Assembly: GCA_903922605.1 (NCBI GenBank)
Contig: CAIXUG010000071.1
Location: 1-61,315 of the forward strand
Direction: 5' to 3'
DNA: 61,315 nucleotides
DNA from: an uncultured Verrucomicrobiota bacterium
GTDB lineage: Bacteria; Verrucomicrobiota; Verrucomicrobiia; Limisphaerales; UBA9464
In this document: positions 27,686 to 35,507 of the stretch, in pieces
Layout of the letters: each line of letters begins with the position of its first letter
Position numbering within the stretch: the stretch's first letter is position 1
Program-made: the position numbers and the translations under genes
Notes under the pieces: generated by a model
Database searches by the model: none
Seen by the model: the letters and a program-made list of their open reading frames with translations, nothing else
What the model was told of the DNA's origin: nothing

Positions 27686-29491
27686 TCAGCGGCGCACGAG
27701 GGTGTTCGCGGAAGTGTCGGCAGAAGTGGAAGTAGTGCTCGTGGCGGAGGAGGTCTTCGCCGGTTCGGGATCATCCGCCACATCGAGGAAGCCGATGAAC
27801 ATCTCGTCCCACGACTGGAGCCCGAAATGGACGCGCTTGGTCGGCTCGGGATTGGCCGGGTTGCCGGGCGAATTGTCGAATCCACCGGTGACCACCAGCC
27901 ACGCGCCCGCAGGCACATGGCGCGGCTGGGCGAGGTGATAGACGGTCTGCCAGTTGAAGTCGTAGCGGGGCACATTCAGCAGCGTCTCGCGCTTGCCATC
28001 CGGTTGCAGGAGGTCGAAGCGCATCCATTTTCCCCGCAGGTGCATGTGCGGCATGAGGGTGTAAATGGTGGCGGGTTTCTTGAAGCCGTAGATGGCGGCA
28101 TCACGCGACTCGTCCGCGCCCGGCGAAATGTTGAGGTCATCCTGCAAAGCCGCATGGGTGAAAAGCACGCGCTCCGGCTTCTCGGGCAGCAGATAGAAGG
28201 CAACCTCCGTCTGGTCGGTCTGCGGGGTACCCATGGTCGTGTAATGCATCTCCAGGTCGAGCTTCGCACCGTGCGGAATGAACTTGCCCGTGCCCGCAGG
28301 AAACCGGGTCAGTGACATGCCCGGAGCCCAGCCGACAATGTTGATACCCCGGCCCGAGCCGTCGTCGGGACCGCCCTTCCACTTGGCCCGGACGATCACA
28401 TGGTGCACGACGCGCCGGTTGCCCGGCTTCACGTCGAGCGCCGCGAGCCACAGGTCGTTGGTCGTGGGCAGCTCGACGGTGATGTGCCGGTAATCGAGCA
28501 CGCCGGTGGCGGGAACCGACTCGGGCTGCGGCAGCTTGACGACGAAGTCCGGTTTGCCGAGCGACCAGTCCGGCAGCGTGGGCAGCGGTTCCGCGAGCGG
28601 GTCGGGACCATCACCGCGTGGCGCGCCGGCGGCCACCCAGCGGATGAGCGTCTGCGTCTCCTCGGCGGTCATGGAACGTTCGTTAGCCCAGTGGCCGTAG
28701 GTGGGATCGGCGTGCCACGGCGTCATCTGGCCGGTCAGCAGCACCTCCTCGATCATCGCGGCGTAGTTGCTCACCTTCGCATGGCTGCTCATCGGCCAGG
28801 GCCCGATGCCGCCCTCGCGGTGGCACTCGACGCACTTCTGTTGCAGCAGCGGCGCGACATGCTTGGCATAGGAGACCTGCCCCTGTTCGTCGCCGACATG
28901 CGCAAAGGCGATGCGGCAGCCATGCGCCTGGGAGCGGGCGGTGGTGACCGCCTGGCCGGCGAGAAATTCCGTCAGCGCCGTTTCCAGAAATTTCGTCTGC
29001 GGGTCCTTGCGCTGCGCGCCTTCGCTGAGCTGGTCGTCAATCGCGCCCTGGTACAGCACCTTCCAGTCGTCCGTGCGGATGGCGACCGTCTCGGCCGTGC
29101 GCTCCACACCGAGCGCCAGCGCCACGCCCTGCTTGGGATCGCGCAGGTAGGTGAGCGGCGACATGTCGAACTCGGTGAATTCCTTGATGCATTCGGTCAG
29201 CGAATCGTCCGCATAGGTGTTCACGATCCAAAACGTCACGTCCTTGCCAAAATGTCCCCGCAGTTCCTGCAGCTTCTCCACGCTCTGCCGCGCGACCGGG
29301 CAGCCATTCCCCGTGAAAAACAGCACCACCGCCTTGCCCTCGGCCCGGTGCAGCTCGTGGTTGCGGCCGCGCAGGTCGAGCAGGTTGAAGTTCGGCACTT
29401 CCTGCGATTTCGCTGTGGCAGCGAAACCCGCCAGCAGCGCGCCGGTGAAGGCGACGATGCGGCAGAGGGCATTGAAACGGAACGGGGTCAT
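27686..29491 (-). CDS. Secreted redoxin - cytochrome c - copper monooxygenase-like fusion
   Basis: 601 residues. After a signal peptide (FNALCRIVAFTGALLAGFAA, cleavage near KSQ-E), a thioredoxin-fold redoxin domain (NFNLLDLRGRNHELHRAEGK, FFTGNGCPVAR with one Cys, about 30-190) is followed by a heme-c motif CVECH (about 220) in a short cytochrome-like region. The C-terminal part resembles the type II copper, ascorbate-dependent monooxygenase (PHM) fold: RRVVHHVIVRAKW with a His pair, LDLEMHYTTMG, and MPHMHLRGKWMRF with H-x-H. The product sits in the periplasm or outside. The substrate is unknown. ATG 29491 is chosen for the signal peptide; the frame is open to 29560. It diverges from the LytS-type kinase. 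Confidence 0.82.
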   Translation of the reverse strand: MTPFRFNALCRIVAFTGALLAGFAATAKSQEVPNFNLLDLRGRNHELHRAEGKAVVLFFTGNGCPVARQSVEKLQELRGHFGKDVTFWIVNTYADDSLTECIKEFTEFDMSPLTYLRDPKQGVALALGVERTAETVAIRTDDWKVLYQGAIDDQLSEGAQRKDPQTKFLETALTEFLAGQAVTTARSQAHGCRIAFAHVGDEQGQVSYAKHVAPLLQQKCVECHREGGIGPWPMSSHAKVSNYAAMIEEVLLTGQMTPWHADPTYGHWANERSMTAEETQTLIRWVAAGAPRGDGPDPLAEPLPTLPDWSLGKPDFVVKLPQPESVPATGVLDYRHITVELPTTNDLWLAALDVKPGNRRVVHHVIVRAKWKGGPDDGSGRGINIVGWAPGMSLTRFPAGTGKFIPHGAKLDLEMHYTTMGTPQTDQTEVAFYLLPEKPERVLFTHAALQDDLNISPGADESRDAAIYGFKKPATIYTLMPHMHLRGKWMRFDLLQPDGKRETLLNVPRYDFNWQTVYHLAQPRHVPAGAWLVVTGGFDNSPGNPANPEPTKRVHFGLQSWDEMFIGFLDVADDPEPAKTSSATSTTSTSADTSANTLVRR

Positions 29492-29670
29492 GCAATGAGG
29501 AGGCGTGATTTTCAGCAACCGATCGCCACTTACGACGCTGCGCATAGCAAAACGGTTCATCCTTTTGCGGGCAACTCCTTGTTTCTACCACTAAAGGCGT
29601 ATCTGCTCCGCGATTGACGGTGCTCGTGACCGCGGTCCAGCGTGGCCCACCGCCCGTTCCTCCGATGGTG

Positions 29671-29676
29671 TATAGT
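29671..29676 (+). promoter_or_regulatory. Possible -10 box of the sensor kinase gene
   Basis: TATAGT lies 6 bases before ATG 29683, in the same position and nearly the same surroundings (TATAGT-n-CGCC-GC-ATG) as before the holin-like gene. No good -35 box was found 16-18 bp upstream. If real, the mRNA would be leaderless. Confidence 0.3.
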
Positions 29677-29682
29677 CGCCGC

Positions 29683-30819
29683 ATGAACTCGCCCGACATC
29701 TCCCCTTCCCGCTGGCGCGGACGGGCCGCCCGCTTCGGGCTGTGGACGCTGCTCGGGGTGTTCTTCGGGCTGAAGCTGTACTTCGACTCCGCGCCCTTCG
29801 GCGGAAATCTGCGGCTGACGAAGGCGCTCTGGTGGCACCTGATGGAATGGTATGCGTGGGCGGTGTGCTCGCCGGCGATCTTCTGGATCTGCCGCACGTT
29901 CCAGCACTGGAGCCGGCCGCGCTACCTGTTTGTGCATTTCGGCGGCGCGCTCGTGCTGTCCACCGTGCAGGTCGCCATCTGCTCCGTCGGGGCGCTCGTG
30001 GAATCCTGGGTGAAAGGCTGGCCGAACACGACGGTGGGCGAGCCGTTTTCGTGGCTGACCGCCTTCCAGTACTCGCTCATCAACCACCTGCTCTTCGATC
30101 TCTTCACGTATGCCATCATTGTCGGGGCGTGGCATCTGGCCGACTACCAGCAGAAGTTTCGCGAGCGCGAGCTGCGGGCGGCCGAACTCGAGGCCAGCCT
30201 GAACCGGGCGCAGTTGCAGGCGCTGCGGGCGCAGCTCCAGCCGCACTTTCTCTTCAACACGCTCAACACGATCGCCGAACTGGTGCACCGGTCACCGGCG
30301 AAAGCGGAAAGCATGGTGGTGGGCCTGGGCGAACTCCTTCGCATCACGCTGCGGCATTCCGCCGAACAGGAGGTTTCGCTGGCCCAGGAACTCGAATTCC
30401 TCCGCGCGTATCTCGAGATCGAGCAGGTGCGGCTGGGTGACCGGCTTACGGTGAAATTCGAGGTCGCGGCCGACACCCTGCCTGCTCGCGTGCCCAACCT
30501 CATTCTCCAGCCGCTCGTCGAGAACGCCATCCGCCATGGCATCGCACCCCGCAAGGCCAGGGGAGAAGTGTGTCTCCGCTCCCGGCGTGAAAACGGCACG
30601 CTGCACCTGGAAGTGCGCGATAACGGGCCAGGACTCACTGGGGCGCCAGACGCCGGCGGCAGCGGCATCGGCCTGACCAACACACGCGCCCGCCTGCAAC
30701 GGCTCTATGGACAGCACCAGCGCCTGGAGCTGTTCAACGACCACGGGCTGGTGGTGTCCCTGGAACTGCCCTTCACCGATGCCGGCACGCCGGCGCTGGA
30801 CGGCCATTCATCCCCATGA
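29683..30819 (+). CDS. LytS/YehU-type sensor histidine kinase
   Basis: 378 residues with four hydrophobic segments in the first 150 (for example FGLWTLLGVFFGLKLYF and FDLFTYAIIVGAWHL), a short coiled coil (FRERELRAAELEASLNRAQL) and then the His_kinase domain of PF06580 type: LRAQLQPHFLFNTLNTI with His188 as the phosphorylation site. The ATP-binding domain has LQPLVENAIRHGI (N box) and VRDNGPGL (G1). There is no separate periplasmic sensor domain, so the signal is probably sensed in the membrane. It overlaps the LytTR regulator by 4 bp (ATGA), a classical pair. Confidence 0.93.
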   Translation: MNSPDISPSRWRGRAARFGLWTLLGVFFGLKLYFDSAPFGGNLRLTKALWWHLMEWYAWAVCSPAIFWICRTFQHWSRPRYLFVHFGGALVLSTVQVAICSVGALVESWVKGWPNTTVGEPFSWLTAFQYSLINHLLFDLFTYAIIVGAWHLADYQQKFRERELRAAELEASLNRAQLQALRAQLQPHFLFNTLNTIAELVHRSPAKAESMVVGLGELLRITLRHSAEQEVSLAQELEFLRAYLEIEQVRLGDRLTVKFEVAADTLPARVPNLILQPLVENAIRHGIAPRKARGEVCLRSRRENGTLHLEVRDNGPGLTGAPDAGGSGIGLTNTRARLQRLYGQHQRLELFNDHGLVVSLELPFTDAGTPALDGHSSP

Positions 30820-31580
30820 AAATACGCGTGCTCATTGTGGATGACGAACCGGTGGCGCGGCAGCGCGTGCGCCGATTTCTCAAGGGGGAAACCGACGTCG
30901 AGGTGATTGGCGAATGTGGTGACGGCGAATCCGCCATCACGGAAATCACGCGGCAACGGCCCGACCTCGTGTTCCTCGACGTGCAGATGCCAGAGCTCGA
31001 CGGCTTCCAGGTCGTCGCGGCCATCGGGCCTGCCCAGATGCCCGGCGTGATCTTCGTGACCGCGCACGATGAGTTTGCGCTGAAGGCCTTCGAGGCGGAG
31101 GCGATCGGGTACCTGCTCAAACCGGTCGGGGAGGCAAGGTTCCGCGCCGCGCTGCAACGGGCGCGGACCTTTCTCGCGGGCCACCCCGGCGCGGATTGGC
31201 CGCATCAGCTCGCCGGCCTGCTCGCGCGGCTGCCGGCGAAACCGCCAGCCCCGCCGTTCGCGGTTCGCACCGATGGCCGCATCGTGCTGGTGCCCCCGGC
31301 GGAGATCGACTGGATCGAGGCGGAGGGCGACTACGTGCGCATCCATGCCGGGGCCGAAACCCATCTGTTGCGGGCGCACATGCATGAGCTGGAAACGCGC
31401 CTCGGTCCCGAGCAGTTCTTCCGGATCCACCGCTCGACGCTCGTGAATCTCGAGGCCGTGAAGGAGGTCCGTCCGGTGCATGAGGGCGAATCCGTGGTCG
31501 TGCTCAGGAGCGGCCGTCGGCTCACCGCCAGCCGCACGGGCGGCCGGCAGTTACAGGAACGGCTCGCCGCGCTGGGCTGA
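30816..31580 (+). CDS. LytTR-type response regulator
   Basis: 254 residues. Receiver domain 1-120 with DD9-10, phospho-acceptor D55 (LVFLDVQMPELDGF), T83 region and K (LLKPVGEA). The LytTR DNA-binding domain covers about 148-252 (FAVRTDGRIVLVPPAEIDWI, EGDYVRIHAGAETHLLR, FFRIHRSTLVNLEAVKEVRP). It is translationally coupled to the kinase upstream. Its own DNA sites are probably those found directly after its stop codon, which makes the secreted FG-GAP protein its likely target. Confidence 0.95.
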   Translation: MKIRVLIVDDEPVARQRVRRFLKGETDVEVIGECGDGESAITEITRQRPDLVFLDVQMPELDGFQVVAAIGPAQMPGVIFVTAHDEFALKAFEAEAIGYLLKPVGEARFRAALQRARTFLAGHPGADWPHQLAGLLARLPAKPPAPPFAVRTDGRIVLVPPAEIDWIEAEGDYVRIHAGAETHLLRAHMHELETRLGPEQFFRIHRSTLVNLEAVKEVRPVHEGESVVVLRSGRRLTASRTGGRQLQERLAALG

Positions 31581-31583
31581 GCC

Positions 31584-31634
31584 CCCGTTCGTCGCGTCGG
31601 GCGAACCGTTCATCGCCCGGGTGACACCGTTCGT
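31584..31634 (+). promoter_or_regulatory. Three LytTR-type binding repeats at exact 21-bp period
   Basis: CCCGTTCGT (31584), ACCGTTCAT (31605) and ACCGTTCGT (31626) are each 9 bp with exactly 12 bp between them. The second and third fit the LytTR consensus (W-M-M-GTT-N-R-K type) at every position; the first misses only base 1. A possible promoter follows (TTCTCA 31645, 16 bp, TTAGAT 31667). The place directly downstream of the LytTR gene and upstream of a secreted protein is what an activator site should have. Confidence 0.7.
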
Positions 31635-31670
31635 CGCAAACCCGTTCTCAAGCCCGCAACCGGCGCTTAG

Positions 31671-33593
31671 ATGGGTCACGTGAAGACCCCTACGTTCCAA
31701 TTCTGCGCCCAACTCTGCGGCCTGCTATTGCTGGCTGGCCAGGCCGGCGCGGATACCGCACCGACGATCACGAAACAGCCCGTCGATGCCTCCGTCAGCC
31801 TCGGGGCCAAGGTTGTCTTCACCGCCACCACGACGGGCAGTCCGGCGCCCACCTTCCAGTGGCAGTTCCGAGCGATGGATCTGCCTGCCGCCACCAACCG
31901 GACCCTGACGCTCACCAACATCCAGCTCACGCAGGCGGGCGAATACCAGCTCGTGGCGGCCAACACCGCCGGCGCGATCACCAGCCGGGTGACGCGGCTC
32001 GACGTGGATCCCATGTTCACGCAGATCGCCGCGCCGCTCTTCAACATTGCCGGCGGCTCGTCCGGCGCGAGCTGGACGGACGTGAACAATGACGGGTGGC
32101 TGGACCTGTTCATCGTCGGCAAGTTTTCCGGCGGCACGGTCCTTTGCACGAACCGGGGCGACGGCACGTTCGGCAAGGCGACCGGCACGGGTATTGCCGC
32201 CTCCGGCATCGGTGGCGCCTCGTGGGGCGATTACGACAACGATGGCTGGCCCGATCTCTTCGTCGCGGGTGACAACGCGCTGTATCACAACCAGCACAAC
32301 GGCACGTTCAAGAAATCCGTGCTCAACGTGGGCAGCACCTACTGCCTCGGCTGGGCGGATGTGGACGGGGACGGCTTCCTCGACCTGTTCGCGGGCAACT
32401 ACTACACCGGCGGCACCGGGGTGTTTTTGCGAAACAACGGCGCGGGCGCACTCACCAAGGTGACGACCAATGCCCTGGTGCGCGGCGCCGGCAACCTCCA
32501 GGGCATCTCGTGGGCGGACTATGACAACGACGGGCGCCCGGACCTGTTTATCGCGGTCACCAGCGGAGAGAAGTGCCAGCTCTACCACAACGACGGCGGC
32601 GGCAACTTCACCCGGGTCATGGAGCAGCCGCCAGTCCTGACCGCCGGCAATTTCGCTTGCGGCGCCTGGGGTGACTACGACAACGACGGCCGGCCCGATC
32701 TCTTCGTTTGCGGTTACAACCAGAAGCATCTCCTCTTCCACAACGAGGGGAATGGGGTGTTCACCACCGTGACCAATGCCGGCCCGATCATCACCGACGC
32801 CGGGGACGACCAAAGCGCCGGCTGGGCCGATTATGACAATGACGGCTGGCTCGACCTCTTCGTTTGCAGCGGCGGCCCGACGCACGGGCTGAAAGATTTC
32901 CTCTACCACAACAACGGGGATGGCACCTTCACGAAGATCACCACCGGCAGCCTGGCCAATGACACTGGCGAGGGCGCGGCCGCCGCCTGGGGCGACTACG
33001 ACCGCGACGGGTTTCCCGACCTGTTCGTGACCAATTTCCAGAACCTCGCCGACGGCGACAAGAGCAACTACCTCTACCATAACAGCGGCAACACGAACTC
33101 CTGGTTGACGGTCCGTTGCCTCGGCCGGGTCTCGAATACCAGCGGCATCGGCGCCAAGGTGCGGGTCAGGGCCCGCATCGGGGGGCGCGAGGTGTGGCAG
33201 CTCCGCGAGATTTCCGGTGGCGGAGCCTACCTCAGCCAGCACAGCCCGGAAGCGATGTTTGGCCTCGGGGACGCGACCCAGATTGAAACCATCCGCATCG
33301 AATGGCCGTCGGGCACGGTGCAGGAGCTGACCGGGATCGCCCCACGGCAGTTTCTGACCGTTCGCGAACCGGCCCGGCTGCGGGCCCGCAGCTTCAGCGG
33401 GGACGATTTTCAGGTCGAGCTGGTGGGCGGTCCGGCGGCGTATTTCCTCGAGACCTCCGGGGATCTTCAAACGTGGGACCGTCCCTCACCGACGCCGGTC
33501 GTTTCCGGCGTTCTGCACTTCGCCGCCCCGGCAAATCCGGCCAACTCCGCGCATTGGCTCCGGGTCGTCGAGGCGGACGCCGGCACGCCCTGA
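31671..33593 (+). CDS. Secreted FG-GAP/VCBS protein with Ig-like and ASPIC/UnbV domains, paralogue 1
   Basis: 640 residues. Signal peptide (FCAQLCGLLLLAGQAGA), an Ig-like domain about 27-108 (ITKQPVDASVSLGAKVVFTA ... AGEYQLVAANTAG), then seven or so FG-GAP/VCBS repeats of the type SWGDYDNDGWPDLFVAGDNA with the D-x-D-x-D-G calcium loop (110-460), and an ASPIC/UnbV domain (GIGAKVRVRARIGGREVWQL, IRIEWPSGTVQELTGI) followed by a short beta tail. Such proteins are extracellular beta-propellers that bind calcium and probably glycans or surfaces. GTG 31680 (MKTPTFQF) is an equally good start and would sit right at the predicted transcript start. It lies 37 bp after the LytTR repeats. Confidence 0.9.
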   Translation: MGHVKTPTFQFCAQLCGLLLLAGQAGADTAPTITKQPVDASVSLGAKVVFTATTTGSPAPTFQWQFRAMDLPAATNRTLTLTNIQLTQAGEYQLVAANTAGAITSRVTRLDVDPMFTQIAAPLFNIAGGSSGASWTDVNNDGWLDLFIVGKFSGGTVLCTNRGDGTFGKATGTGIAASGIGGASWGDYDNDGWPDLFVAGDNALYHNQHNGTFKKSVLNVGSTYCLGWADVDGDGFLDLFAGNYYTGGTGVFLRNNGAGALTKVTTNALVRGAGNLQGISWADYDNDGRPDLFIAVTSGEKCQLYHNDGGGNFTRVMEQPPVLTAGNFACGAWGDYDNDGRPDLFVCGYNQKHLLFHNEGNGVFTTVTNAGPIITDAGDDQSAGWADYDNDGWLDLFVCSGGPTHGLKDFLYHNNGDGTFTKITTGSLANDTGEGAAAAWGDYDRDGFPDLFVTNFQNLADGDKSNYLYHNSGNTNSWLTVRCLGRVSNTSGIGAKVRVRARIGGREVWQLREISGGGAYLSQHSPEAMFGLGDATQIETIRIEWPSGTVQELTGIAPRQFLTVREPARLRARSFSGDDFQVELVGGPAAYFLETSGDLQTWDRPSPTPVVSGVLHFAAPANPANSAHWLRVVEADAGTP

Positions 33594-33626
33594 TCCCTGG
33601 CCCGCCCGTCGAACCCCCAGCTTTCC

Positions 33627-35507
33627 ATGCACAAACCACTCCTGACCGCAACCGGCGGCATTATTTTGTTTACAACTGTTATGGCCGCACCGGTCATCAC
33701 CAGGCAGCCGTCCCCGCTGACAAACTCCGTCAGTCTCGGCGCCGGCCTGACCAATCGTATCACCGCCACGACGACCAACCCGCCGCTCAGCTATCAGTGG
33801 CGGCTCAACGGTAACCCGTTGACGGATCAGACCAACGTCACGCTCAGGCTGGCCGGCCTGCAAGTAGCCGACGCGGGCGGATACACCTGCGTGGCCACCG
33901 ACGGCGTCGGTTCGGCCGAAAGCAGGCCGTGGGTGGTGGACGTCGATCCGGCCTTCACAAAAATCACGACCGGGCCGGTGGTGGGAACCTTTCCGGGACA
34001 GGGAGGCAGTGGCGCCGCGTGGGGCGATTACAACGGCGATGGCTACCCCGACCTTTTTGTATCGGTGATTCGCGGGCCGAACCTGCTCTTCACCAACAAC
34101 GAGGACGGGACATTCACCCGCGTCACCGCCGGACCCTTGGTGGCGGACAACCTGGCTTCGTCGGGCTGTGCCTGGGGTGATTTCGACAATGACGGGACGC
34201 CGGACCTGTTCGTCTCCGTCAATGGCGGTCCCATCAACGACCTGCTCTTTCAGGGAAGCGCGGCCGGTGGCTACGCGAAGGTGAAGACCGGCAGCGTCGT
34301 CAGCAGCGGCGGCAATGGCAACGGCTGCGCCTGGGGGGACTACGACAACGATGGCTATCTCGATCTCTACGTCTGCAATTCCAACGAGAACAACTTCCTT
34401 TTCCATAACAACGGCAACGGCACCTTTACGCACGTCACCACCGGGCCGTTGGTCACCAACACGGGCAACTCGCAGGGCTGCGCTTGGGGTGACTATGACA
34501 ACGACGGCTATCTGGACCTCTTCGTGACCCGCTCCGGCGGCAACAACCTGCTCTTTCACAACAACCGGGACGGATCGTTTTCCGCGGTGACGAAGGGGCC
34601 GGTGGCGACGGATTCCTCGGGCGGCCCCTGTGCCTGGGGCGATTACGACAATGACGGTTATCTGGACCTGTTTGCGACCCGCATCCCGAACAGCCTGCTG
34701 TACCACAACAATGGCGACGGCACGTTCACGAAGATCACCAACGGTCCGGTTGTCACAGACACGCTCGGTTTTAACGGCGGCTGCCAGTGGGCGGATTTTG
34801 ACAACGACGGTTATCTGGACCTCTTCATCTCGGTGATCGGGGCGCAGAATCTGTTCTACCACAACAATGGCGACCGCACTTTTTCGAAGATCGTCACGGG
34901 CAGCCCGGTCACCGACGGCAACGCCATCGCCGCCGCCTGGGGGGACTACGACAATGACGGCTTTCCCGACCTCTACACCACCGGGGCCAGCGTTGCCGGC
35001 CATCTCTATCGCAACAACGGCAACCCGAACCACTGGCTTGGGATCCAACTTCTGGGACGCCTCTCGAACCGTTCCGCCATCGGCGCGAAGGTCCGGCTCA
35101 AATCCACGCTGCATGGCCAACCTCAGTGGCAGATGCGCGAGATTTCCGGTGGCGGCGGCCTCGGCAGCCAGAATGATCTCCGGGCCCTGTTCGGACTCGC
35201 GGATGGGACGAATGCGGAGGTCGTGCGGATCGAATGGCCCTCGGGCATCGTGCAGGAGCTGCATGAGGTAACGCCGGGCCAGTTCCTGAAAATTTACGAA
35301 CCCTCCCGGCTGGAGGTCAGGTCCGCCGGGGCGGCGGTGAACCTCACGCTGCACGGCGGAACCCAGGTCAGTTATCTCCTCGAATCCTCGGCCGATCTGC
35401 AATCGTGGAAGCGTGTGCTCGCCTTTACCAATGCGACCCGGACGATGGACTTTCCCGGTATGGGCGTGGAGCAAGGCGCTCAGTTCTTCCGGGTGCGGGA
35501 ACCGTGA
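33627..35507 (+). CDS. Secreted FG-GAP/VCBS protein with Ig-like and ASPIC/UnbV domains, paralogue 2
   Basis: 626 residues with the same order as its neighbour: signal peptide (KPLLTATGGIILFTTVMAAP), Ig-like domain (ITRQPSPLTNSVSLGAG ... DAGGYTCVATDGVG), eight or so repeats like CAWGDYDNDGYLDLYVCNSN, ASPIC/UnbV (AIGAKVRLKSTLHGQPQWQM, VRIEWPSGIVQELHEV) and a C-terminal S-Y-L-L-E-SS-DLQSW strand block shared by large secreted proteins of this phylum. It begins 33 bp after paralogue 1 with no LytTR repeat of its own, so it is probably read from the same promoter. Confidence 0.9.
   Translation: MHKPLLTATGGIILFTTVMAAPVITRQPSPLTNSVSLGAGLTNRITATTTNPPLSYQWRLNGNPLTDQTNVTLRLAGLQVADAGGYTCVATDGVGSAESRPWVVDVDPAFTKITTGPVVGTFPGQGGSGAAWGDYNGDGYPDLFVSVIRGPNLLFTNNEDGTFTRVTAGPLVADNLASSGCAWGDFDNDGTPDLFVSVNGGPINDLLFQGSAAGGYAKVKTGSVVSSGGNGNGCAWGDYDNDGYLDLYVCNSNENNFLFHNNGNGTFTHVTTGPLVTNTGNSQGCAWGDYDNDGYLDLFVTRSGGNNLLFHNNRDGSFSAVTKGPVATDSSGGPCAWGDYDNDGYLDLFATRIPNSLLYHNNGDGTFTKITNGPVVTDTLGFNGGCQWADFDNDGYLDLFISVIGAQNLFYHNNGDRTFSKIVTGSPVTDGNAIAAAWGDYDNDGFPDLYTTGASVAGHLYRNNGNPNHWLGIQLLGRLSNRSAIGAKVRLKSTLHGQPQWQMREISGGGGLGSQNDLRALFGLADGTNAEVVRIEWPSGIVQELHEVTPGQFLKIYEPSRLEVRSAGAAVNLTLHGGTQVSYLLESSADLQSWKRVLAFTNATRTMDFPGMGVEQGAQFFRVREP

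Follow-up and report, generated by a model that had tools for sequence, protein, structure and literature searches.

Several described systems resemble parts of the regulatory locus analysed here, which lies within a 61,315-nucleotide stretch of DNA (hereafter the window, meaning the whole stretch) from an uncultured Verrucomicrobiota bacterium and consists of a kinase gene, a gene for a LytTR response regulator and an array of three direct repeats in front of two genes for FG-GAP/ASPIC proteins. In the AlgZ (FimS)-AlgR system of Pseudomonas aeruginosa, as far as the excerpt of PMC4064291 goes, a LytS-type kinase core with an H box is likewise encoded upstream of a LytTR regulator, which has CCGTTCGTC as its binding core; the same excerpt states that AlgR sites need not be repeats 12 bp apart, and that two repeats at a distance of about 12 bp are the target of other LytTR regulators. 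The operators of RcoM1 and CoxC, according to the available portion of PMC11347149, share with the window a LytTR domain placed on three direct repeats about two helical turns apart, CoxC sensing carbon monoxide (CO) and acting as a repressor. LytTR Regulatory Systems of the HdrRM type, in the extract of PMC6193735, carry LytTR repeats at the regulator's own locus, mostly with 12-bp spacing.

Compared with AlgZ/AlgR, the window has three phased boxes before one local gene pair, where two boxes are canonical for LytTR response regulators, and the likeness to AlgR rests on the description of that system and on the shared core. A further feature of AlgZ/AlgR-like kinases is four transmembrane helices in the first 150 residues; hydropathy gave two to three separate candidates in the window kinase (residues 16-153), their number varying with the cut-off. 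RcoM1 and CoxC are one-component regulators of CO oxidation without a kinase (RcoM1 presumably also without a REC domain), their motif (TTCNNGCA / TTNNNGCN) is not TTCRTC, and repression by CoxC is unlike the activation proposed here. The HdrRM-type systems differ in having repeat pairs, a membrane inhibitor in place of the kinase and autoregulation of the operon. Finally, the proteins encoded behind the array resemble the secreted CRTAC1/UnbV-type (ASPIC) proteins, to which we take them to be related, in that FG-GAP repeats are followed by a UnbV_ASPIC domain; they are set apart by an N-terminal Ig domain and by the adjoining regulator. We know of no regulator for CRTAC1/UnbV-type proteins, nor, to our knowledge, has any function or regulator been assigned to the bacterial ASPIC/UnbV proteins.

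Judged from sequence comparison, the locus quite probably forms a self-contained AlgZ/AlgR-like two-component circuit, in which the regulator would bind the array and activate the ASPIC gene pair, and we regard the existence of this local circuit as well supported. The initial annotation had placed three LytTR boxes 21 bp apart, start to start, with 12-bp spacers, and this was confirmed on the + strand (Table 1). The array occupies the gap between the regulator gene and the ASPIC gene pair, box 1 starting three bases past the regulator stop codon. Scored against [TA][AC][CA]GTTN[AG][TG], which we take to be the LytTR consensus, boxes 2 and 3 match at all bases, as had been claimed for two of the copies, and box 1 is mismatched at position 1. 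The AlgR core CCGTTCGTC is contained exactly in boxes 1 and 3, and box 2 has CCGTTCATC.

Table 1. Coordinates of the features of the locus in the window
Feature	Positions	Strand	Remarks
Box 1, CCCGTTCGT	31584..31592	+	TTCRTC core 31588-31593; sister genome CCCGTTCAT
Box 2, ACCGTTCAT	31605..31613	+	core 31609-31614; sister genome ACCGTTCAA
Box 3, ACCGTTCGT	31626..31634	+	core 31630-31635; sister genome TCGGTTCGT
Predicted -10 element, TTAGAT / TAGATG	31667..31673	+	TA at +38 from box 3 core; identical letters in sister genome G274
Membrane histidine kinase, LytS/AlgZ-type core, 378 aa	29683..30819	+	PF06580 2.4e-27, HATPase_c 7.5e-10
REC-LytTR response regulator, 254 aa	30816..31580	+	Response_reg 1.5e-25, LytTR 3.9e-23
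Ig + FG-GAP + UnbV_ASPIC protein 1, 640 aa from ATG	31671..33593	+	FG-GAP_3 7.4e-59 (7 stretches), UnbV_ASPIC 9.9e-22, I-set 6.1e-10
Ig + FG-GAP + UnbV_ASPIC protein 2, 626 aa	33627..35507	+	Pfam domains; 46% identity to protein 1

One box alone is uninformative because single 9-mers are common: about two are expected in the window from base composition, and 9-mers with at most one mismatch numbered 70, compared with 51 in shuffles. From base composition only, triples with a start-to-start distance (lag) of 21 bp are expected 5e-10 times in the window for MCCGTTCRT and 0.0004 times in the 5.3-Mb genome for TTCRTC. One TTCRTC triple was observed, and this sole perfect triple with a 21-bp period in the genome directly adjoins a LytTR gene. 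The genome held no further MCCGTTCRT pair with 11-13-bp spacing and no further CCGTTCRT pair with 11-14-bp spacing; relaxed GTTCRT pairs at 15 bp occurred at nine places, two of them at this array, versus two in the reversed control.

In 50 genomes of the family, one close orthologue of the regulator was identified (93% identity, in genome G274; the other near-full-length matches listed were at most 53% identical). G274 is the sole other genome with exactly this locus, and it bears out the expectation of the initial annotation that the repeats are kept together with the gene order, four box substitutions aside. The 90-bp gap that bears the array is 81% identical between the two genomes and the four coding parts 92-93%, and the boxes of G274 retain the 21-bp period and GTTC in all three. 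Among 320 genomes of the order, the ACCGTTCRT pair with 11-14-bp spacing was present in this genome alone. In other LytTR loci the bases around TTCRTC differ, and the strict-motif search in relatives therefore seemed negative; this cause was revealed by a motif-free lag scan together with a count of TTCRTC triples.

These analyses covered the fetched LytTR neighbourhoods of the family (102 LytTR genes including the window) and a second set, the named loci, comprising the best 80 of at least 503 confirmed loci from a collection scan (82 LytTR genes). The two sets overlap in some contigs (L103/L193 and L119/L185, with identical domains). The motif-free scan was applied to 368 regions, namely the 300 bp behind the regulator, and 250 bp before the kinase or regulator gene plus its first 60 bp. 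Repeats agreeing in at least eight of nine bases were found at lag 21 in 40 regions and at each of the other 31 lags in 5 to 35, the runners-up being lags 42 (35), 30 (34) and 18 (29); a three-box array also yields lag 42. Pairs of TTCRTC peaked at lag 21 (13 in the family set, 9 in the named set) and lag 42 (10 and 7), with 0-3 at lags 20 and 22; lag 75 also reached 9 in the named set, and in the family set lags 7 and 14, with six pairs apiece, betrayed microsatellites. Triples matching TTCRTC in at least 17 of 18 bases numbered 16 at lag 21 in the 181 fetched loci (one of which, L256, is without a LytTR gene), against 1 summed over 24 other lags between 15 and 39. These 16 include one 7-bp microsatellite (L229) and two duplicates, as well as orthologues. 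At 16 of 18 bases the count was 29 at lag 21, with a maximum of 13 elsewhere (lag 36).

Two sources of spurious periodicity were recognized. Coding DNA produces lag peaks at multiples of three (36, 39, 18), and TTCGTCA-type microsatellites with a 7-bp unit inflate lag-21 counts (for example L229 and L183); the latter were filtered from later counts. In the genomes G307, G315 and G317, abundant TTCGTCA-like microsatellites of this kind imitate the 21-bp TTCRTC array. A family-wide array count, positive in 35 of 50 genomes, was discarded as evidence on account of this inflation.

At thresholds of 12, 14, 16, 18 and 20, a matrix built from 21 boxes gave 63, 49, 41, 29 and 20 placements at lag 21 and 33, 24, 19, 8 and 7 at lag 42, compared with maxima of 16, 10, 9, 3 and 3 at the other lags between 15 and 39. 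As it was built from lag-21 arrays, this matrix is not neutral. A second matrix was built from the window and G274 alone and tested on the remaining loci; at threshold 18 it picked out 11 loci (10 clusters) at lag 21 and no more than three at each of 30 other lags, with corresponding values of 5 versus at most 2 at threshold 20 and 15 versus at most 9 at threshold 16. Arrays scoring at least 24 accompany 16 of 181 non-identical LytTR neighbourhoods, corresponding to 7 of the 85 clusters formed at 70% domain identity, and arrays were encountered in Verrucomicrobiota, Acidobacteriota and Myxococcota. All but one of these 16 best arrays (15/16) lie on the strand of the regulator, and the positions of a fourth box score negative in 16 of 16.

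Most of the arrays also share a putative downstream element. Counting from the core of box 3, 8 of 9 array groups with a score of at least 24 (6 of 7 clusters) have the dinucleotide TA at +37/+38, as do 11 of 16 groups at score 19 and 12 of 20 at score 17, the two L084 arrays being counted separately, whereas other offsets average 1.4-3.6% (five best excluded) and the best unrelated offset reaches 4 of 20. It is missing from L065 at the high threshold and, at the lower ones, from L124, L184, L189, L255, one L084 array and two L138 arrays. The A+T fraction was 0.74 at +38 and 0.79 at +39, versus 0.16-0.63 at the remaining offsets from 15 to 59 (19 groups). In the window this TA belongs to the predicted -10 element, from which transcription would start at about 31680, at an in-frame GTG that gives MKTPTFQFCAQLCGLLLLAGQAGA, a usual start of a signal peptide. 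With this start point, the ATG at 31671 would fall within the -10 element; if the predicted promoter is correct, GTG 31680 is the likelier translation start of ASPIC protein 1.

We propose that the membrane kinase would phosphorylate the REC-LytTR regulator encoded directly behind it, and that the regulator would then bind the three AlgR-like boxes, which, with a period of 21 bp or two helical turns, face the same side of the DNA. Counted upstream from the supposed start point, the box centres would lie at about 50, 71 and 92 bp, so placed that the bound regulator could help RNA polymerase to start at about 31680. The resulting transcript would encode two presumably secreted Ig/FG-GAP/ASPIC proteins, as the two genes, separated by 33 bp, probably share one transcript. 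Activation is favoured over repression because the array lies upstream of the supposed -10 element.

Several observations weigh against this circuit or its wider occurrence. Counted by eye, the substitutions between the window and G274 amount to 4 of 27 positions in the boxes, affecting all three, and 13 of 63 in the remaining gap, so that this pair of genomes proves no selection on the boxes. A simple sigma-70 scan of 29400-33800 detected no promoter, consistent with an activated promoter lacking a -35 element but also with no promoter at all. With the matrix from the window and G274, lag 21 (22 loci) was hardly distinguished from lag 36 (21 loci) at threshold 14, and the 16 best arrays include just 4 of its 11 loci at threshold 18 (L055, L065, L099 and L225). 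Moreover, 15 stretches of 11 other ASPIC-linked LytTR loci contained no lag-21 three-box array.

Of the other explanations, repression of the ASPIC genes by the array-bound regulator is unlikely. In the available portion of PMC11347149, the LytTR protein CoxC does repress through three direct repeats that overlap the -35 region, and in the window the end of box 3, 32 bp ahead of the supposed -10 element, is close to a possible -35 position; however, the same text has the majority of LytTR regulators binding upstream of -35 and activating. In most cases, 10 bp separate the repeats of LytTR Regulatory Systems from the -35 region downstream of them (extract of PMC6193735), and the distance from box 3 to the -35 position inferred here (about 31645) is also 10 bp.

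Activation of the ASPIC genes by the neighbouring regulator is also preferred to a main use of the array by another LytTR regulator, for which we see a small chance. The genome carries three LytTR genes, the two paralogues of the regulator being 48-49% identical to it, and the paralogue on contig C1 has a TTCRTC array of its own (L129), so that box preferences may overlap; yet the array in the window begins directly behind the neighbouring regulator gene, and both stay together in the sister species. For the third LytTR gene (L128, G000:C89), no lag-21 TTCRTC array scoring above 10 was found in 8.5 kb, and its regulator may therefore use another box. A regulon scan allowing two mismatches gave 22 places in the genome versus 7 in the reversed control. 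Besides the window, the place on C1 is convincing by position and that on C61 is uncertain, while among the remaining 19 several are alike in both species and resemble coding DNA. The same scan of G274 led to two further places (L289, L299), whose inspection gave no result. At G000:C61:22712-22759 (L314) and G274:C3:3994-4041 (L293), three TCGTC-type repeats 21 bp apart precede a frame starting MDS; they are apparently orthologous, with diverged spacers, and the list of LytTR genes of the genome shows none on C61. That the array is a functionless chance or relic repeat is highly improbable: all three boxes carry substitutions in G274 and the strict pair is missing from the 319 other genomes of the order, but the low chance expectation, the period and GTTC cores retained in G274, and like arrays with equal TA spacing beside other LytTR genes, other phyla included, argue otherwise.

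LytTR genes recur near ASPIC genes. An ASPIC domain lies within 5 kb of 15 of the 102 family LytTR genes (3.3 kb at most, measured between the domains) and within 2 kb of 10, where random placement calculated from per-genome numbers (104 LytTR genes) would give 2.6 within 3.5 kb and 1.5 within 2 kb; genomes of this family contain 6-33 ASPIC/UnbV domains each. The 15 genes form ten clusters. Among the named loci, 2 of 82 LytTR genes are within 4 kb of an ASPIC domain. The order regulator-array-ASPIC was found in the window and L127; the ASPIC gene is divergent from the kinase gene in L133, L135 and the named loci L058 and L116, divergent from the regulator gene in L182 and convergent in L184. 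It precedes the regulator gene in L219 and L244, stands between two regulator genes in L235 and follows one in L242. In L245, L246, L248 and L249, a LytTR gene in which no REC domain was detected lies directly behind an FG-GAP/ASPIC gene, possibly representing another LytTR-ASPIC arrangement.

L184, L245 and L249 were covered by the general array scoring, in which L184 showed a weak array (19.3) on the opposite strand, and a two-box match at lag 21 was present behind the regulator in L116 (14.8) and L058 (14.4). We dropped the idea that this array also controls the remaining ASPIC-linked LytTR loci after the 15 stretches mentioned above had yielded no such array. The initial annotation had suggested scanning for the repeats before other ASPIC/UnbV genes; among 18 ASPIC/FG-GAP loci (16 of them outside LytTR contigs, L161 and L164 on such contigs), L150 scored 19.8 and the others at most 11.1; most of these loci had 1.5-kb flanks, in which promoters may be missed. 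An array common to ASPIC genes in general was accordingly rejected.

Wherever the sequence past the array was read (window, L127, L065, L123, L129, L146, L225 and L231), it runs into a gene. In L065 (Acidobacteriota) and L123 (Corallococcus), the array stands directly behind the regulator gene as in the window, and the next gene encodes an ABC transporter and a 1061-aa Big_6 protein, respectively. L129, L146, L193, L225 and L231 contain a recurring unit of a three-box array, a small secreted-looking protein with DxDxDG/DxNxDG motifs, a LytS-type kinase and a LytTR regulator. The secreted-looking protein has EF-hand or dockerin-type matches, some under curated cut-offs, in L129, L146, L225 and L231 (array score of the last, 20); a similar protein, with DxNxDG loops seen by eye, precedes the kinase in L193 and its orthologues, and a Pfam scan of L192, in another frame, was without match. 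Overall, 30 of 181 LytTR genes have at least three DxDxDG motifs inside 3 kb, versus 8 at a distance of 3-6 kb, for which less sequence was available. In the 19 loci with full flanks the counts were 6 versus 3, and the enrichment near LytTR genes is therefore weak.

These comparisons leave room for a broader reading, which we offer tentatively and consider somewhat doubtful. There may be a cross-phylum class of LytTR response-regulator promoters with three TTCRTC boxes 21 bp apart and a -10 element 37-38 nucleotides past the core of box 3. Many of those in Verrucomicrobiota would drive secreted DxDxDG proteins, either FG-GAP/ASPIC proteins as here or EF-hand/dockerin-type proteins whose genes immediately precede the kinase gene. 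On this reading, this LytTR clade might be a dedicated controller of secreted calcium-binding proteins, ASPIC/UnbV proteins would be repeatedly tied to LytTR regulators, and the transcript of the window might be leaderless from GTG 31680.

A regulator and a LytS kinase had been described in front of the array: the REC-LytTR gene and the PF06580/HATPase core are indeed present, but the kinase had no other Pfam match at E<=0.001, including none to 5TM-5TMR_LYT, the sensor domain that we take to define a strict LytS kinase. Its motifs are HFLFN at residue 188, NAIRHG at 281, DNGPG at 313 and GIGLTN at 328 (G-box motifs in HATPase). The kinase gene precedes the regulator gene and overlaps it by 4 bp. 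The regulator reads FFRIHRS at residue 201, matching FhRhHRS, given as a motif of the LytTR family in the excerpt of PMC4227749. Two giant proteins had been announced behind the array; the two FG-GAP/ASPIC genes stood up to scrutiny, but the products are not giant. Their FG-GAP and UnbV_ASPIC matches exceed the curated cut-offs, and each protein has seven DxDxDG-type loops, which together with the seven FG-GAP stretches would suit a beta-propeller fold; a structure model had a mean pLDDT (predicted local distance difference test) of 43.9, too poor for judging this fold. With respect to a signal peptide, hydropathy alone indicated a hydrophobic N-terminal stretch in both. Farther upstream, between a divergent redoxin gene and the kinase gene, a ACGGTTCAT box at 29552-29560 lies within a GCAAAA-N10-TTTTGC inverted repeat and is identical in G274.

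Three boxes as such are not new, as three-repeat operators are known for RcoM1 and CoxC (PMC11347149, in part). The apparent novelty lies in a response-regulator version that has an AlgR-like box and a fixed -10 element, occurs in several phyla and is tied to secreted calcium-loop and ASPIC proteins. A search of one literature collection found no title on the regulation of bacterial ASPIC/UnbV proteins and no paper joining LytTR with UnbV, or LytTR, direct repeats and Verrucomicrobia; LytTR combined with three direct repeats returned the CoxC paper alone. We know of no worked-out LytTR regulons in the array-bearing phyla, across which the layout of three boxes and a -10 element would serve as a searchable signature. 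For the bacterium itself, the operator, the neighbouring regulator and the predicted start point would together offer a direct entry, via the stimulus of the kinase, to the question of when the cell makes its ASPIC proteins.
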